Source: a virus. Taken from it: a stretch of 46,796 bases of DNA. Positions 12,510 through 46,170 of the stretch are shown here, one piece after another (within the stretch, counting starts at the first letter, position 1; each line of letters begins with the position of its first letter). Position numbers and translations under genes: made by a program. The notes beneath the pieces were generated by a model that was not told the DNA's origin, did not search any database, and worked only from the letters and a program-made list of their open reading frames with translations. The stretch is from IMG/VR virus record IMGVR_UViG_3300001213_000009, positions 1 to 46,796 of that record; one strand, written 5' to 3'.

Positions 12510-13045
12510 AAAGTGCCTCTCTATCCACGCCCTTCTTTCTGGTGTCCAAACGAGAGCAGAACTTGACCGCTGGGAGCAGTTCTTCATCGCTCTGTTCAAG
12601 TCGAGAGACCCCAAGTTTGGTTACAACATTTGCAAGGGCGGAGAAGGCTTCAGTGGCTCTCACAGTCAAGGCAGTAATTGCACGCAACGCCCAAGGCCCC
12701 ACAGAGGAGACTCGTAAAAAGTTGATTGACTCCCACACAGGGCTTACTCGCAGCCTAGAATCCCGCGAGAAACAAAGACTGACTATCACAGGAGCTAACA
12801 ACCACTTCTACGGCAGGACTCACTCAGAAGAAACTCTCGCCCAAACTAGAAAGCCGATTCGCTGTGTAACCACGGGTGATGTATTCCCTTCACTTTTGCA
12901 AGCGGCTCAGTGGGCCGGTTGGAATGGAGGGGGTTCAGGGAACCTATCACGGGCACTTAAGGGTAAAGGAAATTTTCTCGGTAAACATTTTGAATACGTT
13001 CAACAACTTTCCAAGCCTATTATAGGTGAAATGCATGGTCTCTAA
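12502..13045 (+). pseudogene. GIY-YIG homing endonuclease remnant, middle and C-terminal part, frameshifted
   Basis: The first frame (12502 to about 12690) encodes ELDRWEQFFIALF, carrying the catalytic Glu, and GYNICKGGEGF, carrying the conserved Asn. These belong to a GIY-YIG catalytic domain that lacks its N-terminal strands here. The sense then moves to another frame (about 12690-13045) with GPTEETRKKLIDS, NNHFYGRTHSEET and a DNA-binding tail with GDVFPSLLQAAQWAGW, like the modular NUMOD-type tails of homing enzymes. So one frameshift lies inside, near 12690-12705, and the N-terminal half lies on the other strand (12200-12509). The 3' end overlaps the start of the next gene by 11 bases. 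The pattern suggests inversion plus decay of an inserted homing gene. Confidence 0.7.
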
Positions 13046-14738
13046 GTTTTCTCATCTCATTCAAGTGGGTCGAATAGTTAACACCGTTGACGGCGGGGTT
13101 TTTCGCGTTACGTCTAAAATCGCATCCGCCGAGGGGATTAAGTTCCGCCTTGCCGACTTGCAGGGTAAGCCCGTTCCAACACCCGCTGACTTTCGTCCCA
13201 TCAGCCCAGCCCTTGCACGCTTCGCGGCGTGGATACGGCTGGCCTATAACAAGGACTTCGATTTGTATGTCAAGGCATACATCGAAGCGGCAGGACTGCC
13301 CATTGACCCAGCAATGAATTGGTCGAGATTCTTCGCGGCTAGGGTTGCCCCCAAGTTGATGTCCAAGGACCCGGAGATTCAGGATGAGGCAATTCACCAG
13401 ATTATCATCAAGACTCTGGTGGAACGCAACGCTCTGACCAATTTTCACGAGTCCATCAAAAAGTTTCCCCAACGCATTCAGGATTTGCCTCTCGACAAAC
13501 AGGTCAGCACCTTCCTGATGCAGACGTTCAATTGGCGTATTCGTGAGGCTAACGACTACATCAAGAACTTCATCTTCCAAGACGAAACCAATTCCATGTG
13601 GGCTGAAGGTGATAGCGAGGATGCAGATGTCAACATTCTCGATAGCGCCGAAAGCACCACAGGCGGGGATGCATACGACGCGGTTAACGCCGACGTTGAT
13701 GTGGCTCACTTCCGCAAGGGTTTCGAAAAATTCCTTGACGAGAAGTTCCGCACCGAAACTGTGCAGCAGTATCTTGCTTTGTTCGACCTCATCTATGCTC
13801 ACTTGAAAGAGGGAGACGTTCCGGGTTCTGGTGCCACAACCCGCAGGGCTCCAATCGGAGTCAGAGAGAATGAAGAGGGCAGACAACTAGGCGTGGGACA
13901 GGCCGAGACGATTGAAAAGGAGATTCCTACTCTGTTTAGTGAGTGGAAAGAACTGACGAATTCTGCCAAGTCTCACTCGTGGTTCAAGGTGCTCTTCACC
14001 AACCTGCCCAAAATTATCGACACTTACATCTCCAAGCATTTGAATGACGAAGAGGTCAGCCCGTTCGTTGACATCATGCGTCAGATTGGTATCGACCAGA
14101 AGGAACAAACCCCTGAGTTGCAGCCCATTGGGGTTGGCGAAGGTGCCGGGGACATCGGTGAACTTGCCGAGTTAGCTCCTCTCGCGGCTGTAGCCTCGAA
14201 GAGTGCTGCTCAGTGGGAAGTTCCAAAGTGCAAGGGATGCGGAAGACAGGATGTATCCGATTGCCTCGCATGTCATGAGAAATTCTGCAACGATTGCATT
14301 CTCACTCATCACGCGAACAACCCAAGTCACGACCGCGTGGCTTCAAAGGCAGCGGCCTTCCATTACATCAACGGGTCTCAGCACAAGCTTGGTGGGTGCT
14401 CCATCTGCAAGAAAGCAGAGCTAGGCGAAACCACCAACGGCAATGATGACCAACCAGTTTTTGTTGATGCCCCCAAAGACCACATCGGTCTCACTCCTCC
14501 AGAGATGCAGGACTTCATCGCGGATTGTATTGGCTCTGGCCTGTACGAACAAGTTGGTGAACCCTACTTTAGCTGGCAGGGATGTGACTACTGCAAGGGC
14601 GGCGGCGGCGGAGACGTTACCGACTGCAAGGGCTATCGCAACCTACAAGATGCTCAGGCTCCGAATCGTGAGGAACTTGAGTATGAATTCCGGCTTTGCA
14701 ATGAATGCCTGTACAAGCTGGTCTATGGGGAAGAATAA
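13035..14738 (+). CDS. Large virion-type protein with B-box-like zinc finger near the C-terminus
   Basis: ATG 13035 (567 residues) is preferred to GTG 13026 because AGGTG lies six bases before it. Residues 1-220 are helical, with FAAWIRLAYN and IQDEAIHQIIIKTLVER, and look faintly like a sigma-factor region 2, though not enough for a call. Residues 399-433 carry a B-box-like zinc finger: C-x2-C, C-x2-C, C-x2-C, then HH and a final H. Two further Cys pairs follow at the C-terminus. The segments AVASKSAA and RVASKAAA flank the zinc finger, the same S-K-x-A linker seen in the 905- and 1376-residue proteins. A packaged internal or structural protein is inferred. The stop abuts the next ATG. Confidence 0.65.
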   Translation: MVSKFSHLIQVGRIVNTVDGGVFRVTSKIASAEGIKFRLADLQGKPVPTPADFRPISPALARFAAWIRLAYNKDFDLYVKAYIEAAGLPIDPAMNWSRFFAARVAPKLMSKDPEIQDEAIHQIIIKTLVERNALTNFHESIKKFPQRIQDLPLDKQVSTFLMQTFNWRIREANDYIKNFIFQDETNSMWAEGDSEDADVNILDSAESTTGGDAYDAVNADVDVAHFRKGFEKFLDEKFRTETVQQYLALFDLIYAHLKEGDVPGSGATTRRAPIGVRENEEGRQLGVGQAETIEKEIPTLFSEWKELTNSAKSHSWFKVLFTNLPKIIDTYISKHLNDEEVSPFVDIMRQIGIDQKEQTPELQPIGVGEGAGDIGELAELAPLAAVASKSAAQWEVPKCKGCGRQDVSDCLACHEKFCNDCILTHHANNPSHDRVASKAAAFHYINGSQHKLGGCSICKKAELGETTNGNDDQPVFVDAPKDHIGLTPPEMQDFIADCIGSGLYEQVGEPYFSWQGCDYCKGGGGGDVTDCKGYRNLQDAQAPNREELEYEFRLCNECLYKLVYGEE

Positions 14739-15509
14739 ATGGCTGAACCAGTAGCAACTCCGGCAACACCTGATGTAACGGAGCCACAACAACAGAATCC
14801 AGCACTCGCCCCTCAGCGTCCGGGGCAGGGTGCGGCGGTTGTGATTTCAGAACCTCAAGAGCAGGAGAAGCATACGATTCCACCAGAGATTCCGTACCCG
14901 AGATACCACATGGCTGTGCTCGAAGCATCGGCCAAGTTCTCATCCTCTGATGTTGCGGAGTATTGGGACTTGGCATCGTTCGACACTCGTCAACAGATTG
15001 TCCATCGCAGCGGATTGCGTGGGATGAATGAAAGACAGCAAATCGAACAACTCATCACCGGAAAGGGCGGCCCGAAACAGTTCACTGACAAGGAAGCCTA
15101 CGAGATAGCCGGTACCCCGTGGAAGCAGTTGACCATCGGCATCAAGATGGAACTCATACAGACGGTGTACAACTTCATGGGTTACGGGATGGAAAACTTG
15201 GGAGACTCAGTACCCGAGTTGGATGACGAAAGCAAAGCGGAGTTGAAGAGCATGGGAATTATCGCCAAGAACGCCCGTGGTGGATGGAAGCGCATCTCCA
15301 TGAACACTGTGCAGAGCGATGACAACCGTTTCACCATCACTCAGATTGACCCGACACGACGCTCGAAGTGGTTCCTTCTAAAAGACATGGAAACTGGAGA
15401 GTCCTACGAGGAAACCACGATGACGGGTGCCAAGAAGAAGGCCAAACAAATAGCGGGTGTAGAAGAATCTCAGGAGTCCATGGTAGCTCTGGAGGATGAA
15501 CTCCTCTGA
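14739..15509 (+). CDS. Hypothetical virion-region protein
   Basis: The ATG follows directly after the preceding TAA. The first 45 residues are Pro/Gln/Thr-rich and probably disordered. A helical, folded core spans about residues 50-190. A beta-rich C-terminal part contains RFTITQIDPTRRSKWFLL and an acidic end. No catalytic or metal-binding signature is seen. It lies between two Cys-rich, linker-bearing genes and is probably co-transcribed with them. No family was recognised. Confidence 0.65.
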   Translation: MAEPVATPATPDVTEPQQQNPALAPQRPGQGAAVVISEPQEQEKHTIPPEIPYPRYHMAVLEASAKFSSSDVAEYWDLASFDTRQQIVHRSGLRGMNERQQIEQLITGKGGPKQFTDKEAYEIAGTPWKQLTIGIKMELIQTVYNFMGYGMENLGDSVPELDDESKAELKSMGIIAKNARGGWKRISMNTVQSDDNRFTITQIDPTRRSKWFLLKDMETGESYEETTMTGAKKKAKQIAGVEESQESMVALEDELL

Positions 15510-15600
15510 ATTTCCCGATTATGACGAGAAACCCGTAACCAACGAAGTTGCGGTAAAGAATGCGTCGGGAAGTGCTTACAGTGAATGGATTAGAAATTGA
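15496..15600 (+). CDS. Possible 34-residue peptide bridging two genes
   Basis: A short frame of 34 codons starts at ATG 15496 inside the end of the previous gene and stops at 15600. The previous stop is only 14 bases into it, and it overlaps TTG 15597, an alternative start of the next gene, in a TTGA arrangement. GGAGG touches the ATG with no spacing, which is poor for initiation, so re-initiation would be needed. It may be real or just an open stretch. Confidence 0.3.
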   Translation: MNSSEFPDYDEKPVTNEVAVKNASGSAYSEWIRN

Positions 15601-15647
15601 ATTTCAAACATCTAATTAGAACTGCGAAATTGGCAGTGGAGGATACC

Positions 15648-16472
15648 ATGGCTCGACCGATTCAAGAAAAGACACAATCAAAATGGGCACGCCTACGTCA
15701 AGTAGCTACTGAAGAGCCCAAAGAAGCTGACTCGGCGATTGCTGAAGTCGCGGAGGCTCTCGGCACGATGGCCGATGCCCTTTCCAATCTTCGCGAGAAC
15801 CTCGACCTGATTGAAGCGCCGAAGACGGCCAACATCAAGGTTCGCATCGCGACGGCTCGTAAGTACGCGACCGCGTTTCGTCGTATCGCCGAAGATACCC
15901 CGGAGATTGTTGCGGGTGCCATCAGCGAAGTTTATCACAGTCTTGATGACGTAGCTGGTGCTTTTGAAAATCTCGCTGAGAATCTCGGCGTCGAACTTAG
16001 TCTGACTCCTGCCGAGGAAGCTATCGGCGAAGAAGGCAAAGCTGAGTTGGAAGGCGAGTGGGGAGCAGAGGAGCCTGAGTCAGGCGAGTCAGGCGCCGCA
16101 CCGGCTGAAGAGAAGCTTGATGCAGAACTCGAAAAGGAAGCTGGGTCACAAGAGTGGACTAGCGACCGCGACGAGGAAGGCCAACCGAAAAGCCCAGTCA
16201 TCGCCGCCGCTACTTGCTCTCAATGCAGTGCTGGTCACGAAGACCCGAAGAAGCCCGGTTTCTGCAAGCGTCATGGCAAGCGTATCAAGAAGGAAAAGAA
16301 AGCTGATGGTTCCGCTGCGTTCATCTCCGACCGCGACAATGCCGCCAAGCCTGAGGCTCCAGCCAAGCTAGACATTCCTGAGGCCCAAGGCGAAACTGAA
16401 GTGGGCAAGGCCGCTGCCAAGCGTGCCGCTGTTCGCGACCGCATCGCCAAGCGTTGGGGCGTTCAACTCTAA
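15648..16472 (+). CDS. Helical acidic protein with C-terminal zinc-like Cys/His cluster
   Basis: ATG 15648 is chosen because TGGAGGA lies five to six bases upstream; the frame is also open from TTG 15597. The product has 274 residues. Its first 130 are strongly helical with SNLREN, FRRIAED and FENLAENLG repeats, two related helical hairpins suggesting a duplicated unit. An acidic low-complexity stretch follows. Then CSQCSAGHED, GFCKRHGKR forms a small Cys/His cluster, flanked by the repeated phrase SDRD and by KKADGSAA and AAKRAA, which match the S-K-x-A linker type. A virion or internal protein is inferred. Confidence 0.65.
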   Translation: MARPIQEKTQSKWARLRQVATEEPKEADSAIAEVAEALGTMADALSNLRENLDLIEAPKTANIKVRIATARKYATAFRRIAEDTPEIVAGAISEVYHSLDDVAGAFENLAENLGVELSLTPAEEAIGEEGKAELEGEWGAEEPESGESGAAPAEEKLDAELEKEAGSQEWTSDRDEEGQPKSPVIAAATCSQCSAGHEDPKKPGFCKRHGKRIKKEKKADGSAAFISDRDNAAKPEAPAKLDIPEAQGETEVGKAAAKRAAVRDRIAKRWGVQL

Positions 16473-16511
16473 AGACGTTCGTGTATTCATGAGACTCGTT
16501 GGAGGCTAACT

Positions 16512-17111: not shown

Positions 17112-17134
17112 TGGACTTTAAATTATCGACTTCA

Positions 17135-17148
17135 CAGTATTATAAATA
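17135..17148 (+). promoter_or_regulatory. CAGTATTATA element containing TATAAATA
   Basis: The element repeats the ten bases seen at 1475-1484 and, with its flank, contains TATAAATA, the classic T4 late -10 box. It lies just after the methyltransferase gene and 50 bases before a hairpin, with no plus-strand gene to drive until 18476, so its role is open. Confidence 0.35.
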
Positions 17149-17196
17149 GAACGCTTGCGTTCCACCTCTCAAGCCATGGGGTGTCTCCTGTAGAAC

Positions 17197-17228
17197 ACCG
17201 CCGCTCTGTCCTGTGATGGAGCGGCGGT
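17197..17228. terminator. Hairpin between convergent genes
   Basis: A perfect ten base-pair stem (17197-17206 with 17219-17228) lies between the plus-strand methyltransferase and the minus-strand integrase. It probably stops transcripts from both sides, although T runs on either side are short. Confidence 0.65.
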
Positions 17229-17234
17229 CTCCGT

Positions 17235-17826: not shown

Positions 17827-17853
17827 GGTGCTGAAAATAATTTTCCAGAATAC

Positions 17854-17883: not shown

Positions 17884-17889
17884 GTAACT

Positions 17890-18400: not shown

Positions 18401-18439
18401 AATCCTCTCAGACCCCCTCAAAAAATTCCCAAAAAATAC

Positions 18440-30365: not shown

Positions 30366-30909
30366 TGTCGATAAAGCACTACAATTGCGCGGCATCCACT
30401 CCAGTGGGGCGGTGTACTACCCGTGGCTGGCCGAACAGGCAAGTACCCGCAAACTCATCGCGGAAGTGGGGTCATGGATGGGTGGCAGTGCGCGTGCCAT
30501 GGCGGACAATACCTCCGGCACCGTCTACTGCATTGACCCATGGACGGTAACCCCTGAGATGTATGGGGACTCCGACTACCAAGCCCATAAGGCCGACCCC
30601 AATTGGCTCTTTGATGGATTCACCCACAACATGGAAGGCTTAACCAACTATCGAGCGGTGCGGATGCTATCCGTTCAAGCAGCGGAGTTCGTAAAGAACC
30701 AAGGGTTGAAATTTGACATGATATTTATCGACGCCTGTCATGAGTACGAGAGTGTCAAACAGGACATCCTCGCATGGCGTCCCTTGTTAGCAGATGGCGG
30801 TCTATTCTGCGGACATGATTGGGGTTTTCAAGGTGTAACACAGGCGGTAACAGAACTAATTCCCGGAGCATATCCGGTTGGTGCGGATTCTATTTGGAGG
30901 GCAGCATGA
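30358..30909 (+). CDS. SAM-dependent methyltransferase, Methyltransf_24 type
   Basis: The likely start is TTG 30358, nine bases after a GAGG and overlapping the previous stop (183 residues); the longer frame from 30247 has no support. IAEVGSWMGGSARAMAD at residues 34-50 binds SAM, VYCIDPW follows as motif II, then FDMIFIDACHEYESVKQD and GGLFCGHDW. This is the family seen also at 16512, usual in sugar clusters where it methylates a terminal sugar. The TGA overlaps the ATG of the epimerase gene in ATGA. Confidence 0.85.
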   Translation: MVNVDKALQLRGIHSSGAVYYPWLAEQASTRKLIAEVGSWMGGSARAMADNTSGTVYCIDPWTVTPEMYGDSDYQAHKADPNWLFDGFTHNMEGLTNYRAVRMLSVQAAEFVKNQGLKFDMIFIDACHEYESVKQDILAWRPLLADGGLFCGHDWGFQGVTQAVTELIPGAYPVGADSIWRAA

Positions 30910-31889
30910 AGAAGATACTTATAACAGGTGGGTTTGGATTTATTGGCTCACACTTGACCGAGAGATTGCTACAAGAGCCGAACAACCAAGTTCACGTGGT
31001 GGACAGCCTAATCACGAGCCCCATCGACGTAGGCTTGTTTGTGAAGCAATTGGAGTACGCCGAACGATTGACTTATGACATCTGCACGATACGGGAGTTT
31101 TTCGCTCGTCCGGAGGTTCCCGAGTTCGATGAAATATATCACCTAGCTTCGGTCGTCGGCCCGGTTGGTGTCTTGAAATATGGTGGTGTAATCCTACGGG
31201 ATATGGTTGGGGACGCCTATGACCTTATCAACTATTCGCTAAAGCGAAAGATAAAACTCACCGATGTGTCCACCAGTGAAGTCTACGGTGGCGGAAAGAA
31301 CGGCTACTGCTGCGAGACCGACTCGATGATTGTTCCAGCTAAAATCTCCGTTCGATTGGAGTATGCGGTTAGCAAGCTGGCTTGTGAAATTGCTTTAGTG
31401 AATACCTGTCGCACCTCTGACCTGCACGCCACATTGGTTAGACCGTTCAACGTTGCCGGTCCAAGACAGGCTACCGATGGGGGATTCGTATTGCCCCGCT
31501 TTATCAATCAAGCCCTAGCGGGGCAACCGCTAACGGTGTATGGAGAGGGCATCAGTGTTCGAGCGTTCACTGACGTGAAGGACATTGTAGATGGAATTAT
31601 CCGCACGATGAACTACGGAAGGTCAGGAGAAGCCTATAACATCGGCAACCCAGCCAACAAGACCACCATCCTTGACTTGGCTCAGAGGGTCATTGCGGTC
31701 ACGGGCAGCGATAGTGAAATCACGTTTGTTGACCCGAAGACGTTGTGGGGACCGCTGTTCGAAGAAGCAAGCGATAAGTATCCGGACGCTGACCGGGCAA
31801 TCACTGAACTAGGCTGGCACCCCCAAGCGGGGTTGGATACCATTATTCGTGATAGTGTGGAGTACATCCGCTCCGGACGACGGGACTAA
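30906..31889 (+). CDS. NAD-dependent epimerase/dehydratase (nucleotide sugar)
   Basis: The 327-residue product is an extended short-chain dehydrogenase. GGFGFIG (residues 8-14) binds NAD, STSEVYG (122-128) gives the catalytic Ser/Thr, and YAVSK (Y153, K157) completes the active site. RPFNVAGPRQ and RAFTDVKDI are typical of UDP- or GDP-sugar epimerases and dehydratases. It probably makes the nucleotide sugar used by the cassette's transferases; the exact sugar cannot be decided. The start codon overlaps the preceding stop. Confidence 0.9.
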   Translation: MKKILITGGFGFIGSHLTERLLQEPNNQVHVVDSLITSPIDVGLFVKQLEYAERLTYDICTIREFFARPEVPEFDEIYHLASVVGPVGVLKYGGVILRDMVGDAYDLINYSLKRKIKLTDVSTSEVYGGGKNGYCCETDSMIVPAKISVRLEYAVSKLACEIALVNTCRTSDLHATLVRPFNVAGPRQATDGGFVLPRFINQALAGQPLTVYGEGISVRAFTDVKDIVDGIIRTMNYGRSGEAYNIGNPANKTTILDLAQRVIAVTGSDSEITFVDPKTLWGPLFEEASDKYPDADRAITELGWHPQAGLDTIIRDSVEYIRSGRRD

Positions 31890-31890
31890 T

Positions 31891-32646
31891 ATGAAAGTTC
31901 TTATCACGGTAAGCAGTTGGGTTGGGGCTGCGACCAATGGTGAAAATCAGGCGATGCGGGAGACATTCCTAAAGGATGCTCCCGCCTATCCCGGCTTGGA
32001 GTACAGGTTCTTCATTGGTGATGGGTTACCCACGGGCGACGATGAAACCGCTTTGTTCGCATCATTCGATGCTTCCGCTCCGGGCTACCGGAACAAGGCT
32101 ATCGCCGGGATGCGGACAGCCCAAACCACGTATATTCCAAAAGAGGATGAGGTCATCCTACCCAACACACCGGATGACTACGCTCGACTCTGTTACAAAG
32201 TCCGAGGACAGTTTCGTTGGGCATTGGAGCATGGATTTGATTACACCTTTCAAGTCGGTTCAGACATCTACATTGTATTGAAACGCTTGATGGAGAGCGG
32301 ATTTGAGGCTCATGACTACGTGGGCAAGACTTGTGGCGTTCACCCCTTGGTGGGTAATCATTACGCTGGGGGCGGCGGGTACTGGTTGAGTAAGAAAGCC
32401 TTGCAACACGTCGTGGACCAGCCTGTGACGTTTTGGGCTGAAGACCTGTGGGTGGGTTCTATCATGTCCAAGAACAACATTGGTCTTCACATAGACCCAA
32501 GATACGCAGTGGACTACCCCGAACTCCCACACCGAGACAATGACATCATCACGTCTCATCTTGGAATTCACAACGGGGTTTTTGGAAAATATGACCCCAA
32601 AATAATGTATGAGGTACACGCGGCATTTGAAAGAGAGAATCTATGA
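31891..32646 (+). CDS. Galactosyltransferase-like (GT31-type) enzyme
   Basis: ATG 31891 directly follows the epimerase TAA by one base (251 residues). The pattern DDYARLCYKVRGQFRWALEH, then YTFQVGSDIYIVL with Asp at residue 125, resembles GT31-type beta-1,3-transferases, in which a Y..L..K helix precedes the DxD-like metal site. GYWLSKKALQHVV and FWAEDLWVGSI fit the acceptor side. It is coupled to the next gene by an ATGA overlap. It likely adds galactose-type sugar; the assignment is by motif only. Confidence 0.75.
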   Translation: MKVLITVSSWVGAATNGENQAMRETFLKDAPAYPGLEYRFFIGDGLPTGDDETALFASFDASAPGYRNKAIAGMRTAQTTYIPKEDEVILPNTPDDYARLCYKVRGQFRWALEHGFDYTFQVGSDIYIVLKRLMESGFEAHDYVGKTCGVHPLVGNHYAGGGGYWLSKKALQHVVDQPVTFWAEDLWVGSIMSKNNIGLHIDPRYAVDYPELPHRDNDIITSHLGIHNGVFGKYDPKIMYEVHAAFERENL

Positions 32647-33371
32647 AAGATGTGACCGCGCTTGTTAAAGCCTTCCTTCGGGACGATTACTTGTTCGATT
32701 GTGTCCGGTCTCTTCGAGAGACATATCCCGAGATTCATATTATCGTTGCTGACGATGGCAACTCCTCGGATGAGAAAGAGGAGCAGTTGCGACAGCTTGG
32801 TGTCAGCAAGTACATTCGATTGCCATTCAACTCAGGACTCAGTGTTGGAAGAAATGCAATGGTGGATGCTTGCGATACACCGTATTTACTATTATGTGAT
32901 GACGACCTACTGTTTACTTCTGAAACTCGCATTGAAAACCTCCGCCGTCTCATGGACATTTCAGACATAGCCTCCGGGGCGTTCCTGAATTATGGGACTG
33001 AGGTATTTAACTACGAGATGAATCTCAATCAAGGGGAGGGGAGATTCTGGTTATCCAATGTTACTTGGCCCCCCTTCTCTGACTATGAAGGCGTTCGGTA
33101 CGGGAAGTGTGACCTAACGCACAACATTTTTGTGGCAGACACGGAAGTGATTCGCCGAATTCGTTGGGAGCCCAACATCAAGGTACGTTATGAGCACGAA
33201 GATTTTTTCATGTCAGCTAAACTGCAAGGAGCAAGCGTGGTGTACTGTCCGGATGTTTTAGTGTTGCACAAGAAGCAAGGGTACCCAGCATCCTCGGAGT
33301 ATGCTTCCCATCGTTGGGATGACGCCCCCTCACGCGAGGCGTTCATTGCAAAGTGGGGGTTTATATGGTAA
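32643..33371 (+). CDS. Glycosyltransferase family 2, paralogue of the fused enzyme's C-half
   Basis: The 242-residue protein has DDG (ADDGN, residues 36-40) and CDDD (85-88), the GT2 nucleotide and metal sites, and later WLSNVTWPPF, YEHEDFF and CPDVLVLHKK. It is related along its length to residues 245-500 of the 34290 protein, down to the first DNA bases of the two frames. Its start overlaps the previous stop (ATGA), and its own stop overlaps the next gene's start by seven bases. Confidence 0.85.
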   Translation: MKDVTALVKAFLRDDYLFDCVRSLRETYPEIHIIVADDGNSSDEKEEQLRQLGVSKYIRLPFNSGLSVGRNAMVDACDTPYLLLCDDDLLFTSETRIENLRRLMDISDIASGAFLNYGTEVFNYEMNLNQGEGRFWLSNVTWPPFSDYEGVRYGKCDLTHNIFVADTEVIRRIRWEPNIKVRYEHEDFFMSAKLQGASVVYCPDVLVLHKKQGYPASSEYASHRWDDAPSREAFIAKWGFIW

Positions 33372-34288
33372 AGAACTATAGCCTTCGATTGATTTCAAAC
33401 AATAAGCCTGATACCCCGTCAGGTATTTGTTCAAGCAACCAAATGATTGCATGGGGACTGTGGTCAGAGTTTTCCAAACACCCTCACGTCACGTTGTCCT
33501 ACTACAACGACTCGCAGGGTCAGGGGGGTTGGGCTTCCGGCGAACAGAGCTTCAATGAACTCCCTGAGGTTGACTTCACCCTCATTCATACCTATGCCCC
33601 GGTTACGATTTTTACAGAAGCCAAGAAGAAAACGAAGCATGAAGTGATGTGGTTATCCGAACTGCCATACACTGGGATGGACCACAATTTCACATTCCTC
33701 CCCTCTACTTGGTCTGAGCAAGTCCCGTTACCAATTCTGCGGGATTTGATAGAAGAATACACGATTGCGGAGAAGACACCGGGAAGCATCCTGCTTGACC
33801 ACAGCATTCCTCGTCAATTTGCAAACTATGCCAACTGGTCGGGACGATTGTTAGAGTGGTTGGCCCCAACACATGTCGCACGTCAGGTATGCCAGCAACG
33901 TCGCGTTGAGTGGGAGTCGGATGAAGACCGGAATATTCCAGAGTGGGTGTCCAGTTTGTTTCCAGTTCCCTACCCGAAGTTTTTGAAAGCTACCGCATCT
34001 TTCGAGACTTTTATTATGACGCACCCCGGCACCTATGAGCACCAAATCATAGATATGGTGGCTAGGGGAATTCGCGTGTTAGTTCCAGTTGAAGGCGGTT
34101 TACCGTTTGCTCCTCAGGATACGATAAACCGATTGGGGTTAGAGACATTTGCAACACGAGAGGGTTTACTATCGTTGCTAAACTCCCCAGCCAGTAAACC
34201 CCCATTTAGTTTTGACTCGTGTACTTCGATGCCAGAGATGGTGGCGACAGTAGACCAACACTGTCAGCAGTGCTTAAAGGGGGATTAA
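33365..34288 (+). CDS. Probable glycosyltransferase of GT-B type
   Basis: The 307-residue product starts in a seven-base overlap with the previous gene. The first part has a TPSGICSSNQMIAWGLWSEF start, like GT-B enzymes with a Gly-rich first loop, and the last part has GTYEHQIIDMVARGIRVLVP and PFAPQDTINRL, like the acceptor- or donor-binding domain of GT-B enzymes. The fold is inferred and no exact family was recognised. It stands among GT2-type genes as the only likely GT-B member. Confidence 0.55.
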   Translation: MVKNYSLRLISNNKPDTPSGICSSNQMIAWGLWSEFSKHPHVTLSYYNDSQGQGGWASGEQSFNELPEVDFTLIHTYAPVTIFTEAKKKTKHEVMWLSELPYTGMDHNFTFLPSTWSEQVPLPILRDLIEEYTIAEKTPGSILLDHSIPRQFANYANWSGRLLEWLAPTHVARQVCQQRRVEWESDEDRNIPEWVSSLFPVPYPKFLKATASFETFIMTHPGTYEHQIIDMVARGIRVLVPVEGGLPFAPQDTINRLGLETFATREGLLSLLNSPASKPPFSFDSCTSMPEMVATVDQHCQQCLKGD

Positions 34289-34289
34289 C

Positions 34290-36020
34290 ATGTTGGACGA
34301 GATGCAGGGATTGTGGGTGGGCGACCGGCTATCCCCGTTGGAGCAGGTATCCATTCGTTCGTTCCTTCGTCAAGGACACCCCTTCACTCTGTATACGTAT
34401 GGGGAGGTCGCTGGTGTGCCTGAAGGCACGAAGCTGGTTAACGCTGAGGAAATTCTGCCTAAATCGCAGTTCGACCCCGCCAAGTTTTCTTCATTGGGGG
34501 CTTTTTCGGACTTCTTCCGCCATAAACTTCTCCTCGAAAAAGGGGGTTGGTGGGTGGACATAGATACGGTCTGCCTGAAGCCTTTTCAATTTGATTCACC
34601 TTTTGTATTTTCCTCTGAATTCTTGGCGGATGGTTGCACTCCTCATACCAACTCAGGGAACATTAAAGTCCCAGCCAACAGTGAGATTGAGAAGTATATT
34701 TGGGAAGAGTGTTTGAAAACTGACCCTTCAAATATAACGTGGGGCGCGGTTGGACCGGCTCTGGTGTCGCGTGCCGTTGAGAAGTTCGACCTAATGCAAT
34801 ACGTTCAATCGCCTGAGGTGTTTTGTCCTGTGTCATGGTGGGATGTGCAAACCCTGATTGACCCCATGAAGTCACTTAATGTTAAAGAAACAACACGTGC
34901 CATTCACTTGTGGGGTGAGATGTGGAGTCGCAAGGGGATGGACAAAACCACGTTCCGGCTTGGAAGCCCGTATGAACGATTGCATCGGATGTCATTTCAA
35001 GGATACATGCCAACCGAGTCGATGGAAGATGTGACCGCTCTGGTTAAAACCTTCTTGCGGGATAAATCATTATTCCACTATGTTCAAACCTTGAAGGAGC
35101 AGCATCCTAAGATTCACATTATTGTCGCGGACGATGGCAACTGCTCAACTGAGAAGGAACAGAAGTTGCTGAGCATGGGCGTTGACCGTTATATTCAGCT
35201 TCCATGGAATGTGGGGTTGTCAGCGGGGCGCAACACCCTGTTGGATGCTTGCGAGACGCCCTTCGCACTTTTCGGCGATGACGACTTCAGTTTTGACGCC
35301 AACTCCCATCTTGAAAATTTGCGCTTGTTGATGGCCGTATCCGACATCGCGGCTGGTCGCGTTCTTCAAAAGGGAGAGCACGGCTATGTGAAGAGGGGTG
35401 AGTGGCTCAATTTTGGTGGGGACTTAAAAGAAATCGGAGGGAAGATGTACCACGTCCCCCTGTCGGGCAAGCTTCAAACATATCAGGGAATCCTTTATGA
35501 GAAACTTGACCTCCCATTGAATTTTTTTATTGGACGAGTGGACGTTTTGAGACAGGTCAAATGGGATGTTGCCTTGAAGGTGGGATACGAGCATGAAGAT
35601 TTCTTTTTGAGAACAAAAGAAGCCAACCTGAGGGTGGTTATCTGCCCGGATGTCGCGGCCAACCATCAAGAGGTGGATGAACTCAACCCTGAGTACACGA
35701 AAGTCCGGACTGACTACACACAATATTATCAGTATTTCACTGAAAAGTGGGGACGCACGCCCGGTCAGCCTTTGGCTATCAGTCCAACGCCCCCTCCTCC
35801 CGCCCCATTAGAAATTCAACCCGCTGGGCCGATACCGAATTGGAATAAGCATTTTCTGGATAATAAAGTTCAGATGTTGTTTCATAAGTTCAGGTATGCG
35901 GTAGCCACCATCCCCAAGTCGGCGCACTACAAGCAACTGTGCAAGATATACCCTGAACATCTTGAAGAAGTAGTGGACACGCCAGAAGGCCGTCGTATCA
36001 TATTTGTAGTGGAGAGATGA
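34290..36020 (+). CDS. Two-domain glycosyltransferase: GT32-like N-half fused to GT2-like C-half
   Basis: The 576-residue protein begins LWVGDRLSPLEQVSIRSFLRQ and has GGWWVDIDT (D90-I-D92) as its metal site, as in GT32 enzymes. After a Trp-rich region a second enzyme starts at Met245 with MEDVTALVKTF, an exact parallel to the start of the 32643 protein (MKDVTALVKAF). It has DDGN and DDDF sites and a GYEHEDFF motif. A Pro-rich linker and a C-terminal 90-residue region follow. So a duplicated copy of the GT2 gene was joined to a GT32 gene, giving an enzyme that could add two sugars. Confidence 0.82.
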   Translation: MLDEMQGLWVGDRLSPLEQVSIRSFLRQGHPFTLYTYGEVAGVPEGTKLVNAEEILPKSQFDPAKFSSLGAFSDFFRHKLLLEKGGWWVDIDTVCLKPFQFDSPFVFSSEFLADGCTPHTNSGNIKVPANSEIEKYIWEECLKTDPSNITWGAVGPALVSRAVEKFDLMQYVQSPEVFCPVSWWDVQTLIDPMKSLNVKETTRAIHLWGEMWSRKGMDKTTFRLGSPYERLHRMSFQGYMPTESMEDVTALVKTFLRDKSLFHYVQTLKEQHPKIHIIVADDGNCSTEKEQKLLSMGVDRYIQLPWNVGLSAGRNTLLDACETPFALFGDDDFSFDANSHLENLRLLMAVSDIAAGRVLQKGEHGYVKRGEWLNFGGDLKEIGGKMYHVPLSGKLQTYQGILYEKLDLPLNFFIGRVDVLRQVKWDVALKVGYEHEDFFLRTKEANLRVVICPDVAANHQEVDELNPEYTKVRTDYTQYYQYFTEKWGRTPGQPLAISPTPPPPAPLEIQPAGPIPNWNKHFLDNKVQMLFHKFRYAVATIPKSAHYKQLCKIYPEHLEEVVDTPEGRRIIFVVER

Positions 36021-38787: not shown

Positions 38788-41505
38788 ATGGCAGACACAC
38801 CGAAGTATTCCAGCATCATTGATGAATTTCTCGACTCTCGTGAACCAGATTGGAAAGACTTGGGGTTAAAAGACGCCAAGAAATCTGGAGATGAGTGGCT
38901 ATCCAAAACTCATGATGAGGCCGATGCCCTTCTTGAAGAACTGGCTGGTGCGTCTAAGCACACCGCCGTCCCGCCGACCAGCAAGGGTGCGACTCTCCAG
39001 AACCGTATGCTCGATAAAGAGAACGCTGCCCCTCGCATGGGCTCAGGCCGTACAGCACAGGCCCGGACAGCCGGTAATGGCAGTGAGGATGACTCGCTCG
39101 TGGAAGAAATTACCGAAAGCTTCGAAGAAGCTGCCAAGAGTGGCAGGGTTGAGAAGAAGCACCGCTCCGACGCTGAGATTAAGAACTACGTCAAGCAGCT
39201 TCTGAATCAAGGTGTTCCACCGGCCAAGGTCGCGGCCCAACTGAGTAAGTTGGCTGAACTTGAACTGTTCAACCACCAGATGGGTACTCGCTATCTTCAG
39301 GACAACGCCGGTCTCATTGGTATGGCTTACATGGAGCCCAACACCTTCATGGATAAGCAGAACCCGAACTACGAGCGTAAAACCGCCTATAGCTTCAACT
39401 CCGTTTCCGAGCAGAAGCAACAACAGGAAGCCGGTGGGGTCGTAAGTCAGATTCGTCCCGGCGACCGCGTGACCATCACTACCTCACATGGTCAGGAAAT
39501 GACCGGCAGGGCGGTTATGTACAACGCTCAGCAACAGTGCTGGGTTCTTAACATGGGCGGCAAGCATGGCACACCGGGCATCGCCGATGAAACAAACATC
39601 GTCAAGGTCCGCAAGGCACCGTCGAAGCGTGCGGCTAATCCAGCGGGATTATTTGTTGGAAACAAAGCGTGGGAGTCAGTACCCCCACAACGCTCCGGAT
39701 ATTATGAAGAGAACCCGCCCGATGACTGGGAAGAGTGTGGGCAGTGCGAGTGCTATCACCCCGCTGGTTTCACCGGGGATTGCCGCGATGACATAAACCG
39801 TTGGCCTTCTGACGAATCTATTGCCGCTATGACAACACAAGCCCCGAATGAGCACATGGCTGCGGTGGGTGACACCGGCTGGGCTGAAGGTGAGAACACT
39901 GAAGCGAAGCCGACACCCGTTATCTTCCGCAAGTGGAAGGACACGGGCGACATCCTAGCTCTGTTCCCCTATGACTTGGGAACCGACAGTCCTTACACAT
40001 GCAGCAGCTATGAGCATGTCGGACAGCACGGTGCCGCCGACCCACGCGGGTGCATCCAACAGACGAAGCCAGCAAAGCCAGAAGAGTACGCTGCCCTTAA
40101 GGCTGAACTCGAAAGCCTCGGCTACAAGCTGAAGCCGATGAGCCGTCTTCAGTATGATGCCCTCTTGAGTCGTGAAAATCAACTCAAGCAGTACCACTCA
40201 AATGATGTACCGGAAGCCAACGATGGAATGCAGACCGTTGAGCCGGGATACAAGAGCACGACCTTCAGTCTCGATGATGAGGAAGCACCGAAGCAAGCTT
40301 CCAGTCAGGATTGCGTTCGTCAAGCAAAGACATGGAAGGCCGCAGGTATCCAGCCACGTGCAAAATCCGTCAAGCAGATTACTGCTTGCGAAGGATGCAC
40401 GTACTTCAAGAAGAATGGTGGCTCCAAGACCTGTGGACTATATGGTCTACCTGTTATCTCTAATGCCAAGGAATTGACCTCAATAGTCAATAAGTTGACC
40501 GCTGGCGTCCCGGCATCTTCGAAGAGGGCCGCGTTGGTGCAGATTGCCAACCGCACCCAAGAGCATAACCCCATTGCCAAGGCCGCTTCCTCTGAAGCAC
40601 CGTTTGTGCATCAGTCCTCGTTCACCAAGGAACGTCAGTTCGGTTTTGCCGAGCCTGACCACTTCAGTGGCTCATTGGTTCAAAAGCTTCACACAGCCGG
40701 TCATTCTCTGAAGGCTATCAGCGAAGCCGCTGATAAGAAGTATGGTGCGCTCGAAGCCTCCAAGGGCATCCGTGAATTCCTCGCCGCACTCCGCAAGGAG
40801 AAGGGCAAGATTGTCATGGCGAAGGCCGACGCTGATTACCTCAAAAAAATCGGTATTCACAATGAGGCGATTGTCGGTGCATCGAAGTGTGCATCATGCA
40901 AGAGCCACGACGGCAAGCAAGTTCGCAAGGCCGCTTCTAGTGAGATGGTGACACGTGCCCCTGAGACCTTTGTGGAATCCACACTGGGTGGGATTCGCGC
41001 TTCACATCACACAACCACGGCTCACTTTGACTCCGCCGCTGTAGCTAAGCTGCACACTGCGGGTCACAACATTGACAAAATCTTCAAGGCGGCTTCTGCC
41101 AAGTACGGTTCGGCACAGGCCAGCAAGGCAGTTCGCGATTGGGCAAACAATCTCAAGAACACCAACACCAAGATTGCCCTGTCACAGATTGACTGCACCA
41201 CGCTGAAGAAGATGGGCGTCAAGCTGGGTTCGCAGAACGCCATTGTTGGTGCGGAGAAGTGTGGCTCATGCAACTACCGCAATGGTATGCACTGTGGTTT
41301 GACGGGTGGCACGCTGCTCAGCTTTCCCGGCATGAACAAGGTTACATCAAACAAGAAGGTTGCCTCGGGTGCCCCGGAAGACGGTCGCTCGATTCTGAAG
41401 GAGTTTGACCTGATGGGTAGTTCTGCTCAGGCCGACATTGATATGAAGGCTCCAGACCGCGCTGAAATTCAGATGGGTTCGAAGCCGGATGCAGGGGAGA
41501 TTTAA
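38788..41505 (+). CDS. Large mosaic virion-type protein with Cys modules (905 residues)
   Basis: AGGGGA precedes the ATG. The chain looks like beads: a helical N-terminal 210 residues; a small barrel with IRPGDRVTITTSHGQ (about 221-275); a Cys group CGQCECYHP; a phage domain with PVIFRKWKDTGDILALFPYD and CSSYEHVGQHG (about 376-452); then C-x2-C...CGL modules at CEGCTYF, KCASC and KCGSC. Residues 628-712 and 749-838 are two copies of one unit (KLHTAGH-x-K-x-A-A and KKIG/KKMG). Between modules are SKRAANPAG, SSKRAAL, AKAASSE and KAASSE linkers. The domain near 376 is found as a small separate protein in other phages. A packaged or structural protein is inferred. Confidence 0.7.
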   Translation: MADTPKYSSIIDEFLDSREPDWKDLGLKDAKKSGDEWLSKTHDEADALLEELAGASKHTAVPPTSKGATLQNRMLDKENAAPRMGSGRTAQARTAGNGSEDDSLVEEITESFEEAAKSGRVEKKHRSDAEIKNYVKQLLNQGVPPAKVAAQLSKLAELELFNHQMGTRYLQDNAGLIGMAYMEPNTFMDKQNPNYERKTAYSFNSVSEQKQQQEAGGVVSQIRPGDRVTITTSHGQEMTGRAVMYNAQQQCWVLNMGGKHGTPGIADETNIVKVRKAPSKRAANPAGLFVGNKAWESVPPQRSGYYEENPPDDWEECGQCECYHPAGFTGDCRDDINRWPSDESIAAMTTQAPNEHMAAVGDTGWAEGENTEAKPTPVIFRKWKDTGDILALFPYDLGTDSPYTCSSYEHVGQHGAADPRGCIQQTKPAKPEEYAALKAELESLGYKLKPMSRLQYDALLSRENQLKQYHSNDVPEANDGMQTVEPGYKSTTFSLDDEEAPKQASSQDCVRQAKTWKAAGIQPRAKSVKQITACEGCTYFKKNGGSKTCGLYGLPVISNAKELTSIVNKLTAGVPASSKRAALVQIANRTQEHNPIAKAASSEAPFVHQSSFTKERQFGFAEPDHFSGSLVQKLHTAGHSLKAISEAADKKYGALEASKGIREFLAALRKEKGKIVMAKADADYLKKIGIHNEAIVGASKCASCKSHDGKQVRKAASSEMVTRAPETFVESTLGGIRASHHTTTAHFDSAAVAKLHTAGHNIDKIFKAASAKYGSAQASKAVRDWANNLKNTNTKIALSQIDCTTLKKMGVKLGSQNAIVGAEKCGSCNYRNGMHCGLTGGTLLSFPGMNKVTSNKKVASGAPEDGRSILKEFDLMGSSAQADIDMKAPDRAEIQMGSKPDAGEI

Positions 41506-42029: not shown

Positions 42030-42039
42030 GGGGAATCAA

Positions 42040-45000
42040 ATGGCCGCAAGCGGAAACAGTATCGCGTTGAAATCATTCCAGTCCTTCGCTGTAAATGAAG
42101 GACTCCTCGCAAAAGTGGTCGAAGCCGTAAAGGCTGGCGAGAAAGAAGCCCGTACGTCTGGCGACATCAAGTCCTTCGAGGTCTTCTACAAGGGCTTTCG
42201 TCAGAATATCGCCATTGGCCGTATCTACATTGTCCCCGTCAAGGTGTGCAACAACTTCAAGAACTTCCCGATTTCCCTGCTCTACGGGACGGTCGTTCGC
42301 GAATTGAACCTCGGTGAAGAGGTTGCTGACTTGATTGAAAAGAAAATCGGCGAGACCGAGTTTGACGAGTATTCGCAACTCGATGTCCAGCGGATTAAGG
42401 ACACCCTGTTCAAGGACGCCGAGTCTGAGGAGTATCGCTCCTTGGTCTTGTTTGCCCCGAATTGGTCAAACATCCGCGAGTACATCGTGTTCAAGTTCAC
42501 AGGAGACGACGAGAAGCTTTCGAACCTGCTTCGTCACCAGATTTTCTCCGCCTACTTCAACCCCGCTGTGTCCGGTGCGTTCGACGCCCTTATGACCAAC
42601 GTGGACACCAACAAGATGGACTTGACAGACATCACCCCCAAGCTGACCTACCCCTTCATCACGGAGAATCCGCTGAAGGCGTATCCTGACCTGCAAAAGA
42701 CAGGCGGATGGTCGAAGCCTAAGGTGTTCCTCACTGCTAAGACGGCGGACGCCATTACTAAGGAAGTTCTCGACCCGCAAGAGTTGAATGTGTTTGAGGC
42801 TTTGGACTCCGCTCTCACGGAAGTGACGATGCCTGAGACACAGGGTATGGATGAAGTCGCTGACTTCAAGGGCCCGGATGGTTCTAACCATGGCAACGCT
42901 GAGACCCCTCAGATTGATGGTGAACAGCCGACGACCGCCGACTTAAAGGATGACTCAGGTGCGTCCACTGGTCTCCGCCGTCGCCCTGATTATGGCGAGA
43001 AGGACAGCTTCACTTCTGAGATGAATGAAGCGAACAGTAAGGGTGCCTCCGCTAAGACAGCGAAGTTTGACTATAGTGCAACAAACTGCCCTGACTGTGG
43101 TAATCAGCTTGATGCCTTCAAGACGTGTCCTGCCGCCGATGCAAAATCTGGCCGTCAGTTCTGTGGTAAGGGAAAAGAAGTTCCTAACCTGCATCTGTGG
43201 GGTGGGGGCGGCGGTTCTGTCGCTCCAAAGAAGGGAATTCAGAACGAGCAACAGCCAGCCCGTACTATGGTTGGTTCTACGAAGAAGGCCGACACCGCTG
43301 ACAACCCGGCAAACGAAAAGGGTGGAGCCGGAGCCATCGAAGTAAAGACGGATAAGGAAATCGCGGTAACAGCCGGTTTCGACCGTAACGCAACTGTGTG
43401 CCCCGATTGTGGTAAGGAATTGGACGGCTTCAAAATTTGCCGCGATGCCAAGGGCGGTGGTCAGTTCTGTGGCGTTCAATCCGGTGCCCCATCCCCAAAC
43501 CTATACCTCGGGGATTTTTACAAGGACGCACCGCAGAAGGGCATCCAACGTGAACCCAATGCGTCTCGTCGTGTTGGTTCAGCCAAGACAGCGGAAGTCG
43601 ATATGGGTCAGGTACCCTCGCAGCAGGATAGGGCTGATGTAAAACCATCTGACAAGACCCCAGTCAACACTGTGACGTTCCGTGCGGGTGCTGCGGGTGA
43701 AGGCAAGGGCATCGTATTCGGATACCACATGCCAACAGGCCACTTCGGCAAGCGTGAATTGAAGTTTGAATGGCCGATAGAAGAAGCCACCTATCGTCGC
43801 ATGATTAAGCCGTTCGTTGACCGCAAGGATAGCAACGGTGCTTTCGATGCCTTCCAGAAGTTGACGGGAGGCAAGATGGCCTGTGCCCCGTTCGAAACCC
43901 CGTTCACTAATGTTGGGCCGGGAACTGCTGCACATGACAATGCTGAGAAGGCGATTGCTGTGAAGGTGGATACCATCTCTCAGAAGGGCGACGTTGAGGC
44001 CAACAGTCCCATTGGTATTGAATTGGATGAAACCGGATTGCCGGTTCACGAAAAGATTGCACGCGAGATTTGGCGTGGGGTTGATGACAACGGCGGTTAC
44101 GTCGCGATGTCCACCAAAGCCAAGGCCGCTGCTGATAAGCGTGAAGCCGAATTGGACAAGAAGTACGCCGGTCGCAAGAAGGCTGACGTGGCTTTGACTG
44201 AGGAAAGCATTTGGGCGGGCATCACCGAGGAATTCGGTGAGGCTCCTCAGGTGGAACTCCCCGGTGAAGGTGACAGCAAGCCCACTGAGTCCCTCCCTGA
44301 GACAATGACAAGTGAGAAACCGGAAGAAGCTAAGGCGGTTACTGAAAAGGAAATCGACAAGGCTGAACCTAAGTCCGACCGTCCGAAGTCCAAGATGTTT
44401 GGTAAGGGTGAGGGCGATAATAAGGAAGAGCCGAAGGAAGAAAAGAAAGAAGAGACCAAGGAAGCTTCCAGCAAAACCGCTCTCCTCTACATGAACGATT
44501 ACGACATTCAGATGGCACAGCAGATACTGGGCAGCGACCCGGTTCTCGGACCGGCGATTCGTTTCCTTAATGAGTTCCGTAATGAAGTTAATGAGCACTC
44601 CGATGGTTGGGCGTACTGGTCTGCTCCCCTTAAGGCCGCTGCTCAACTGATGACTCTTATTCAGACCGGCGTCAACGCCCGTCGCGAAGGTAAGGCTCAC
44701 GGTGTAACGGTTGACAACTTGAAGAGGGCAATGGCACCCATCAAGGCGTTCATGACTCGTCGTGGTCTGGCTGCTGGTATGCAGATGCCAAAGCTGGCTG
44801 TTAAGAAGAATGCAGCCGAGATTCAGCCGGATATGGCTGAGGCGAAATCAGAAGTTGTTAGCCCGGATACTGTGGACGCCGACATTAAGCAGCCCACCGA
44901 GTCCGTCGAGGAAGCCGCCAAGTTCGCCGCTGTGGAGCGTACAGGCGACACCAATGCAACTGAACAGTACGCGGGTGAGCATGGTTGCCGTACGTATGAG

Positions 45001-46170
45001 AATGGCAAAGTATGCATGAAGCCTGAAGCTGTCATTCATGATGGCCGCAAGTATTGCGAGAAACATCGCCCCTCTGAAAGCAAGAAGAAAAAGGCGGATT
45101 TGGGGGCGACTTCCAAGGGTCGTGGGTTTGGTAATTACGTACGGGGTGAGGAGATTCATGACTTCACCAACGTACACACTGGAGACTTGCTCTTGGAGCA
45201 TTCTAACCAGTTCGACGCGGACAATACAATCTTGGTCAGCAAGGATGAATTTCCCGAGGCCCCTAATAGCCGCATTTGGGCACACTTCGTAAATCCTGAA
45301 GATTGGGAAGAGCGTTGGGGAGAAGATTTCTGTATTTGGGCACACGAACTTGGAAACAAGAAAACCGGCATCGAACTGTGGAGGGCAGGTAACACTCCTG
45401 AATTCTCCGAAGCCGATAAGATTGGACTCAATGGGCTTGGAGTTACAGGTAGTTCGAAGAAGAAAGCCGATGTAAGTAGTGACATCTCTGAAGCGAAGTC
45501 GGAAGTGGTCAGCCCCGACACGGTTGACAGCGACATCAAGCAGTCCACTGAGTCAGTTGAACAGGCCGCAAAGGTTGCATACGGGGAAGAGACGGTTTAC
45601 TCTCCTGACACTTTGCAACTCGCGCAGCGTCTCATTGACTCCGGTGATGATATTGCCTACGACGTAGCTGCCAACGATGGTCAGATTTTTGACAATGTGA
45701 AGGGCATGGAATGGTTTGTCAAGGCCGTCGCTGAAGAAATCGCTGGCAACGAAGACACGGTTCGTGAGTATCTCGACAACGAACCCTTTCTCACTCGTAT
45801 GGAACATGGTGTGGACTACAGTGGCGGGGTTATCGCCGCTGCTGGCGATGAGAATGATGAAGCGGTAGAGATGGGTTTGGGAGATGGCGACTTGGCTGAC
45901 CCCGCTGCCAATCTTCCCAAGGTAACCGCAGCATCCAAGACTGCTGAAGCGTACTACACCAGTAGGAACTTCAAGACCAAGAAGGATTTGGCTCAAGCGG
46001 TCGCAAACGGTAAGCAAATCACTGTGTACGACCCCGGTCAAGGTATGGGTGGAGAAGCTGAGCCACCACTAAACGGAACAGTAAGTGTGGCCGGACCTCA
46101 CTATCCGGAGCCACATCGCTGGTACAGTCGTGTAACCCTTTCTAACGGAATCATTGTCGGAGTCAAGTAA
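42040..46170 (+). CDS. Giant mosaic virion-type protein of 1376 residues
   Basis: AAGGGG precedes ATG 42040; the frame from 41974 is too long by 22 residues. Residues 1-280 form one folded domain. Then come two near-identical zinc modules (CPDCG...FCG at 350-377 and 453-478), a region with PTGHFGKRELKFEWP, an acidic coil, a helical part with YDIQMAQQIL, a Cys/His cluster GCRTYENGKVCMK...YCEKH (981-1009), a domain with WAHFVNPEDWEERWGEDF, and a C-terminal phage domain with ITVYDPGQG and GPHYPEPHRWYSRV (1311-1376). A 33-residue linker is duplicated at about 932-966 and 1149-1181. Some ten S/A-K-x-A joints separate the modules. Confidence 0.7.
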   Translation: MAASGNSIALKSFQSFAVNEGLLAKVVEAVKAGEKEARTSGDIKSFEVFYKGFRQNIAIGRIYIVPVKVCNNFKNFPISLLYGTVVRELNLGEEVADLIEKKIGETEFDEYSQLDVQRIKDTLFKDAESEEYRSLVLFAPNWSNIREYIVFKFTGDDEKLSNLLRHQIFSAYFNPAVSGAFDALMTNVDTNKMDLTDITPKLTYPFITENPLKAYPDLQKTGGWSKPKVFLTAKTADAITKEVLDPQELNVFEALDSALTEVTMPETQGMDEVADFKGPDGSNHGNAETPQIDGEQPTTADLKDDSGASTGLRRRPDYGEKDSFTSEMNEANSKGASAKTAKFDYSATNCPDCGNQLDAFKTCPAADAKSGRQFCGKGKEVPNLHLWGGGGGSVAPKKGIQNEQQPARTMVGSTKKADTADNPANEKGGAGAIEVKTDKEIAVTAGFDRNATVCPDCGKELDGFKICRDAKGGGQFCGVQSGAPSPNLYLGDFYKDAPQKGIQREPNASRRVGSAKTAEVDMGQVPSQQDRADVKPSDKTPVNTVTFRAGAAGEGKGIVFGYHMPTGHFGKRELKFEWPIEEATYRRMIKPFVDRKDSNGAFDAFQKLTGGKMACAPFETPFTNVGPGTAAHDNAEKAIAVKVDTISQKGDVEANSPIGIELDETGLPVHEKIAREIWRGVDDNGGYVAMSTKAKAAADKREAELDKKYAGRKKADVALTEESIWAGITEEFGEAPQVELPGEGDSKPTESLPETMTSEKPEEAKAVTEKEIDKAEPKSDRPKSKMFGKGEGDNKEEPKEEKKEETKEASSKTALLYMNDYDIQMAQQILGSDPVLGPAIRFLNEFRNEVNEHSDGWAYWSAPLKAAAQLMTLIQTGVNARREGKAHGVTVDNLKRAMAPIKAFMTRRGLAAGMQMPKLAVKKNAAEIQPDMAEAKSEVVSPDTVDADIKQPTESVEEAAKFAAVERTGDTNATEQYAGEHGCRTYENGKVCMKPEAVIHDGRKYCEKHRPSESKKKKADLGATSKGRGFGNYVRGEEIHDFTNVHTGDLLLEHSNQFDADNTILVSKDEFPEAPNSRIWAHFVNPEDWEERWGEDFCIWAHELGNKKTGIELWRAGNTPEFSEADKIGLNGLGVTGSSKKKADVSSDISEAKSEVVSPDTVDSDIKQSTESVEQAAKVAYGEETVYSPDTLQLAQRLIDSGDDIAYDVAANDGQIFDNVKGMEWFVKAVAEEIAGNEDTVREYLDNEPFLTRMEHGVDYSGGVIAAAGDENDEAVEMGLGDGDLADPAANLPKVTAASKTAEAYYTSRNFKTKKDLAQAVANGKQITVYDPGQGMGGEAEPPLNGTVSVAGPHYPEPHRWYSRVTLSNGIIVGVK

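Follow-up and report, generated by a model that had tools for sequence, protein, structure and literature searches.

The window and its joint-bearing genes

The window is a 46.8-kb virus fragment from IMG/VR (record IMGVR_UViG_3300001213_000009, positions 1 to 46,796). Judged by its sequence relationships, it derives from the genome of a jumbo myovirus related to Tunturiibacter phage Tunturi_5, a cultured jumbo myovirus of 308.7 kb with an Acidobacteriota host. The end of the major capsid protein (MCP) gene lies at its start, and four genes further downstream encode proteins with recurring short joints:

1..429, + strand: end of the MCP gene; identity to the MCPs of IMG/VR loci (many peat and soil contigs) 95-98%
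13035..14738, + strand: head-type protein with joints; related to gp345 of Tunturi_5, N-terminal half
15648..16472, + strand: protein with joints; related to gp345 of Tunturi_5, C-terminal part
38788..41505, + strand: modular protein with joints, orthologous to gp348 of Tunturi_5 (by tblastn)
42040..46170, + strand: modular protein of 1376 aa, ortholog of Tunturi_5 gp350 (annotated DarB-like)

The proteins are named here by the starts of their genes. In tblastn, the 13035 protein showed 28.5% identity to Tunturi_5 gp345 over residues 4-180 (E 2e-12), and the 42040 protein showed 45.5% identity to gp350 over residues 7-255 (E 2e-64). The 15648 protein, whose gene has a possible TTG start at 15597, was 39-47% identical to gp345-type C-terminal regions. 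The gp345 protein is encoded by one gene in Tunturi_5, whereas its counterpart in the window is split over two genes (13035 and 15648). The gp345, gp348 and gp350 proteins were found to carry the same K-x-A motif as their window relatives, but were shorter and contained other modules. In Tunturi_5, gp328 is annotated as 'DNA ejection protein', gp350 as 'DarB-like' and gp345 as 'virion structural protein'; the text of the Tunturi_5 paper (PMC11924767) contains no virion mass spectrometry. Pfam and PHROGs searches found almost nothing in the four joint-bearing proteins beyond weak zinc ribbons and phrog_22197, and likewise almost nothing in their long relatives.

Several other features of the window were noted. 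A sugar-modification block (NAD-dependent epimerase, glycosyltransferases) was present at 30819-36020, between two head-type gene groups. A small protein at 2051-2371 appeared HNH endonuclease-like by eye, and an ORF at 12542-13045, overlapping the start of the 13035 gene, resembled a homing-endonuclease remnant, also by eye. The partial gene at 46171-46796 contained a zinc-type N-terminus and a K-x-A-S sequence (FIKEA↓SVRF, the arrow marking the bond), and its later part shared 71% and 63% identity with the genes that come after the 42040 orthologs in loci L021 and L018, respectively.

The K-x-A motif in the window and its relatives

The predicted sites in the window, with the predicted bond marked by an arrow, were as follows:

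13116..13124, + strand: SKIA↓SAEG, 13035 gene; Tunturi_5 gp345 has AKSA↓SPDG at the matching place (by eye)
14199..14207, + strand: ASKSA↓AQWE, 13035 gene; immediately 5' of a Cys-rich (zinc-type) module
14346..14354, + strand: ASKAA↓AFHY, 13035 gene; immediately 3' of the Cys-rich module
39625..39633, + strand: PSKRA↓ANPA, 38788 gene; opens a two-module insertion missing in L018
40291..40299, + strand: APKQA↓SSQD, 38788 gene; closes the two-module insertion
40522..40530, + strand: SSKRA↓ALVQ, 38788 gene; kept in close orthologs
40579..40587, + strand: IAKAA↓SSEA, 38788 gene; kept in close orthologs
40927..40935, + strand: VRKAA↓SSEM, 38788 gene
41356..41364, + strand: NKKVA↓SGAP, 38788 C-terminal tail; K-x-A kept in several orthologs
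42739..42747, + strand: TAKTA↓DAIT, 42040 gene; close to where the conserved N-terminal domain ends
43054..43062, + strand: SAKTA↓KFDY, 42040 gene; 5' of zinc ribbon 1
43282..43290, + strand: STKKA↓DTAD, 42040 gene; separates zinc ribbons 1 and 2
43585..43593, + strand: SAKTA↓EVDM, 42040 gene; 3' of zinc ribbon 2
44176..44184, + strand: GRKKA↓DVAL, 42040 gene; 5' of a conserved segment common to gp350 (NKTADVPL in Tunturi_5)
44473..44481, + strand: SSKTA↓LLYM, 42040 gene; free-standing homologous genes begin 1-3 residues from the bond
44920..44928, + strand: AAKFA↓AVER, 42040 gene; 5' of a zinc module, residues ~973-1010
45088..45096, + strand: KKKKA↓DLGA, 42040 gene; 3' of the ~973-1010 zinc module
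45460..45468, + strand: SKKKA↓DVSS, 42040 gene
45571..45579, + strand: AAKVA↓YGEE, 42040 gene; 3' of a repeated spacer
45937..45945, + strand: ASKTA↓EAYY, 42040 gene; a free-standing Pseudomonas phage Lucjan homolog begins one residue later

All the joints quoted in the first-pass annotation were found in the genes to which it had assigned them. Its count of about twenty, ten of them in the 1376-residue protein, was close to ours: [S/A]-K-x-A occurred 21 times in the four proteins, including 9 times in the 1376-aa protein. In composition-preserving shuffles 5.2 occurrences were expected (p <= 5e-4); the 20 other proteins of the window contained 5, against 3.6 expected. The wider pattern [S/A/T]-K-x-A occurred 25 times in the four proteins (6.8 expected), 11 of them in the 1376-aa protein. 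For the core motif K-x-A-[S/A/D/E], 32 occurrences were found in the four proteins (9.7 expected) and 6 in the 20 others (6.6 expected). The 42040 and 38788 proteins contained 14 and 10 occurrences of the core motif, where 4.1 and 3.0 were expected, respectively. The 15648 protein taken alone, with 4 strict sites against 1.8 expected, was not significant (p = 0.09).

K, A, S and E are abundant in the four proteins, and the motif might arise by chance or from composition in disordered proteins with much Lys and Ala. The composition-preserving shuffles speak against this, as do the control patterns A-x-K, K-x-x-A and K-x-S, which were found without enrichment in the four proteins (observed/expected 30/29.2, 33/29.2 and 8/15.8, respectively). 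Reversed, shifted and shuffled-composition controls were flat or nearly flat, and we regard a purely compositional origin as very improbable.

When every residue pair at spacings 1-5 was listed without bias, K-x-A ranked second in the four proteins, behind the zinc CxxC spacing. It ranked first in the phage G head genes, which were chosen by gene order alone, and in the Tunturi_5 set, which was partly chosen by the motif itself. The method was checked on SPN3US substrates, where VA, A-x-E, A-x-x-S and ES, all parts of the known motif, were found in the top eight and K-x-A was null.

The joints had also been described as lying almost always between a disordered stretch and a folded module, and this held in part. 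In the AF2 model of the 38788 protein, 6-7 of the 10 strict sites were at pLDDT <50, but so were 63% of all residues. The use of this model for placing the joints between domains was dropped because the model was too poor (mean pLDDT 47.7). K-x-A matches were present in predicted helices of the 38788 protein at residues 150, 157 and 770, and matches inside such predicted helical domains may be left uncut.

Across the relatives, the K-x-A motif is concentrated in proteins of predicted head type, including the protease described below. Among 332 mechanically called ORFs of Tunturi_5, the largest excesses were found in gp328, gp350, gp348 and gp332, followed by a small ORF at 221597-222013 and gp345. 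The ORFs of 185 loci were then grouped by crude single-linkage clustering into 43 families. The highest family z was 29, in gp332 (the gene after the protease), followed by 14.5 in 38788/gp348, 12.8 in 13035+15648/gp345, 12.6 in 42040/gp350, 12.4 in the protease and 10.4 in the gp328-330 group. The MCP family (5.7) was in the top group together with two smaller families. The tail sheath (1.4), like the majority of the remaining families, was at background, and the median of the 43 families was 0.34. These z-scores are inflated because the family members are related; the ranking is still clear. K-x-A was found near 'LLxK' N-termini in the gp330 group, but no common N-terminal targeting peptide was established there.

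The head maturation protease and the MCP cut site

The gene order in Tunturi_5 is gp331 (head maturation protease), gp332, gp333 and gp334 (MCP), so that the protease gene is near the core/scaffold gene and the MCP gene. A head maturation protease is also encoded upstream of the MCP in many soil contigs. Since bases 1-429 of the window are the end of the MCP gene, the window begins within that gene and lies just 3' of the protease-gp332-MCP block, and from the order in Tunturi_5 and the soil contigs the protease of the window phage is expected a few kilobases upstream. The first-pass annotation had left it as a question whether a prohead protease gene lies outside the window; such a gene is present in the relatives, and that of the window phage itself would lie beyond the record.

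Relatives of the protease were encoded by >300 viral contigs. Tunturi_5 gp331 matched phrog_18299 (E 4e-13), and the clade protease profile matched phage G gp19 with an hhalign probability of 98%. Fold matches of the protease model (pLDDT 72) in BFVD included prohead serine proteases, COG3740 and G gp19 (E 7e-13). No match was found among solved structures in PDB fold and profile searches, and no profile similarity to T4 gp21 was detected. An invariant S-M-G-C and invariant His residues were present in 34 protease sequences, in which this Ser and a His are the putative catalytic residues. K-x-A was found at residues 5-7 in 34/34 aligned sequences, and [K/R]-x-A-[S/A/D/E] was found in the otherwise variable C-terminal tail in 30/34. 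AF2 gave a confident core with tails at pLDDT <50. These disordered tails with K-x-A resemble the C-terminal tail of SPN3US gp245, which is autocleaved (PMC10052503).

The gene directly before the protease in relatives can encode a protein of 1700-2570 aa with scattered K-x-A (L145:118-5319, L056:1671-7667, L097:2175-9890), for which no Pfam or PHROGs match was found. Tunturi_5 gp330, at the same place, contained only 169 aa. A stretch of the L145 protein, LYHVT...GEGEIYAI, resembles an ADP-ribosyltransferase-type domain by eye.

The position of the cut was set from the MCP. The phage G MCP has a precursor of 282 aa and a mature form of 255 aa, from N-terminal sequencing data (PMC5646251, Table 1), which places the cut after residue 27, in GRVALA↓QAMANP. 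The phage G MCP (gp27) belongs to the MCP family of the clade (6wkk, E 3e-57), and the relatives of the window MCP were aligned with it and with Tunturi_5 gp334. The sites aligned to the phage G cut were GRQKLA↓ASLG in Tunturi_5 and GRNKLA↓ASMT in LR745208, and the aligned positions contained Lys in 60/62 and Ala in 62/62 MCPs. As the measured phage G N-terminus aligns to K-L-A↓A-S of the clade, the cut was set after Ala. The measured phage G site itself has Ala, not Lys, at P3, so that the preference for Lys rests on the statistics.

The published motifs of three such systems have Glu at P1: [L/I]-x-E in T4, [S/A/G]-x-E in phiKZ and A-x-E in SPN3US. The motif enriched here has Ala at P1 and thus departs from the T4 gp21 and phiKZ gp175 type. 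The specificity is best read as Lys at P3 and Ala at P1, as far as the alignments and counts indicate. A prohead protease with K-x-A specificity was not found described in a literature search with partial coverage. The T4 gp21 system is alike in the gene order protease, core/scaffold gene and MCP, in its short three-residue motif, and in its cleaved internal head proteins (substrates gp22, IPI-III, Alt and gp23), several of which are ejected in T4. It differs in that each T4 internal protein has its own gene and a short propeptide. The phiKZ gp175 and SPN3US gp245 systems also belong to jumbo phages, in which many head proteins are cleaved, a propeptide has several sites and the protease is processed at its C-terminus, but their substrates have propeptides, not strings of swappable modules. 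Phage G shares the protease family (gp19), the MCP family, an MCP cut after Ala and K-x-A enrichment in its head genes, whereas its MCP differs at P3 as described above. Counterparts of the 42040, 38788 and 13035 proteins were not found in phage G by tblastn.

The first-pass suggestion that the joints could be protease sites is thus well supported, by the protease upstream of the MCP in relatives, by the concentration of the motif in head-type proteins, the protease among them, and by the aligned, measured MCP N-terminus. We consider the joints to be probably (about 0.8) cleavage sites of the phage's own prohead serine protease, which would cut modular head-internal precursors. The enzyme, whose gene would lie beyond the window, a short distance 5' of that for the MCP, would cut after the Ala of K-x-A, the next residue preferably being S, A, D or E. 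The four window proteins would be head-internal proteins made as modular precursors. After their entry into the prohead, maturation would bring cuts at several of their joints. Modules and linkers freed in this way would then stay in the head or leave it, and ejection of modules together with the DNA could follow. We infer that every joint is cut and that modules are retained and injected.

Bxz1-like, E3-like and Phrappuccino actinobacteriophages encode a related protease whose total length, with a long extension at the C-terminus, is 850-1370 aa (L186:12013-16122, L187:8638-11325, L188:8753-11311). In the actinobacteriophages with related proteases K-x-A was moderate (z 3.1), below R-x-A (4.4), and the position aligned to the phage G cut reads R-L-G↓Q. 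The K-x-A rule was therefore not extended to this group.

Modules between the joints

Two of the modules in the 42040 protein were found as separate genes in other phages:

44482..44814, + strand: module (phrog_22197); small genes of their own in phages of Microbacterium and Arthrobacter
45946..46167, + strand: C-terminal module; separate 70-aa gene in Pseudomonas phage Lucjan, 47% identity

Residues 816-909 of the 42040 protein matched Pumpernickel gp23 from its first codon, and also BruhMoment gp101, whereas the Lucjan gene matched residues 1306-1373. The starts of the free-standing genes fall one to three residues past the predicted bonds SKTA↓L (P1' 815) and SKTA↓E (P1' 1303). In the 38788 protein, the module at residues 376-467 corresponds to Mic1_53, with no joint directly before it. 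Zinc ribbon 1 of the 42040 protein was a Zn_ribbon_6 match at residues 347-379, under the Pfam cut-off. The first-pass annotation had suggested that many small zinc modules might be released; some of the predicted pieces are zinc modules, but others are non-zinc modules or acidic linkers. A spacer, SEAKSEVVSPDTVDxDIKQxTESVExAAK, was present twice in the 42040 protein, at residues 926-963 and 1144-1180, and spacers related to this repeat were also present in the gp345-type proteins of L149 and L141.

Modules were also found to move. The 38788 ortholog in L018 contained APKKSSSNDC in place of the two modules that the window has between SKRA↓A and PKQA↓SSQDC. The window module at residues 285-349 was at the C-terminus in the L016 ortholog. 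In L018 the ~973-1010 zinc module preceded the 815 module, and in Tunturi_5 gp328 it was close to the N-terminus. Ortholog insertions of >=40 residues had ends <=5 residues from a site in 19/76 cases, against 8.0 expected, and both ends <=10 residues from a site in 6, against 1.8 expected. For modules shared across families, 28 boundaries were <=6 residues from a site (19.5 expected), a weak excess, with little beyond 6.

The insertion ends and the occurrence of modules in different protein families would also fit joints that are only linkers or recombination hot spots, that is, flexible hinges that aid domain shuffling and are not cleaved. However, the protease, a single-domain protein, also has the motif at its disordered ends, as does the MCP at the aligned processing site, and domain shuffling was seen in neither place. 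The flat or nearly flat shuffled-composition and reversed-motif controls also count against hinges, and we consider them an unlikely explanation.

If the joints are protease sites, two outcomes would agree with the data. The proteins could be cargo polyproteins, with modules set free for injection, or they could hold precursor regions that are shredded and discarded, as in T4 gp22. In the second case, the protease would mainly shred scaffold-like or propeptide regions in the style of T4 gp22 and SPN3US gp53, with most fragments discarded. The strongest enrichment was in gp332, the gene after the protease, which is the place of the scaffold gene 22 in T4; T4 core proteins (PMC9026906) and SPN3US propeptides (PMC10052503) are cut at several sites; and the AF2 model of the 38788 protein has long low-confidence stretches between joints. 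Such shredding is a serious possibility, at somewhat less than even odds. On the other side, modules can be recognised in the 42040 and 38788 proteins. Three of these are genes of their own in other phages, and in orthologs some modules between joints have moved or are absent. Recognisable, movable modules are not the content expected of waste scaffold; they suggest processed cargo polyproteins. Module content would favour the cargo outcome for 42040 and 38788, and the discard outcome for gp332. We tentatively propose, well short of even odds, that this large clade of soil jumbo phages packs its heads with cargo polyproteins. Their small, interchangeable modules, of which many would be zinc-binding and some have separate genes in other phages, would be cut apart inside the head by a prohead protease of a new, K-x-A specificity and then injected.

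Cleavage after K-x-A would give a concrete, testable rule for an uncharacterised group of jumbo phages, the relatives of G and Tunturi_5, by which processed head proteins and candidate injected factors could be read from sequence. With Ala at P1 and Lys at P3, the specificity would differ from that of the well-studied proteases of T4, phiKZ and SPN3US, which have Glu at P1. As Tunturi_5 can be cultured, the question is open to direct test. If the modules are released and injected, this would be a new way to deliver many small proteins from one gene, and new injected factors could evolve in a simple way, by the gain of a module flanked by joints.
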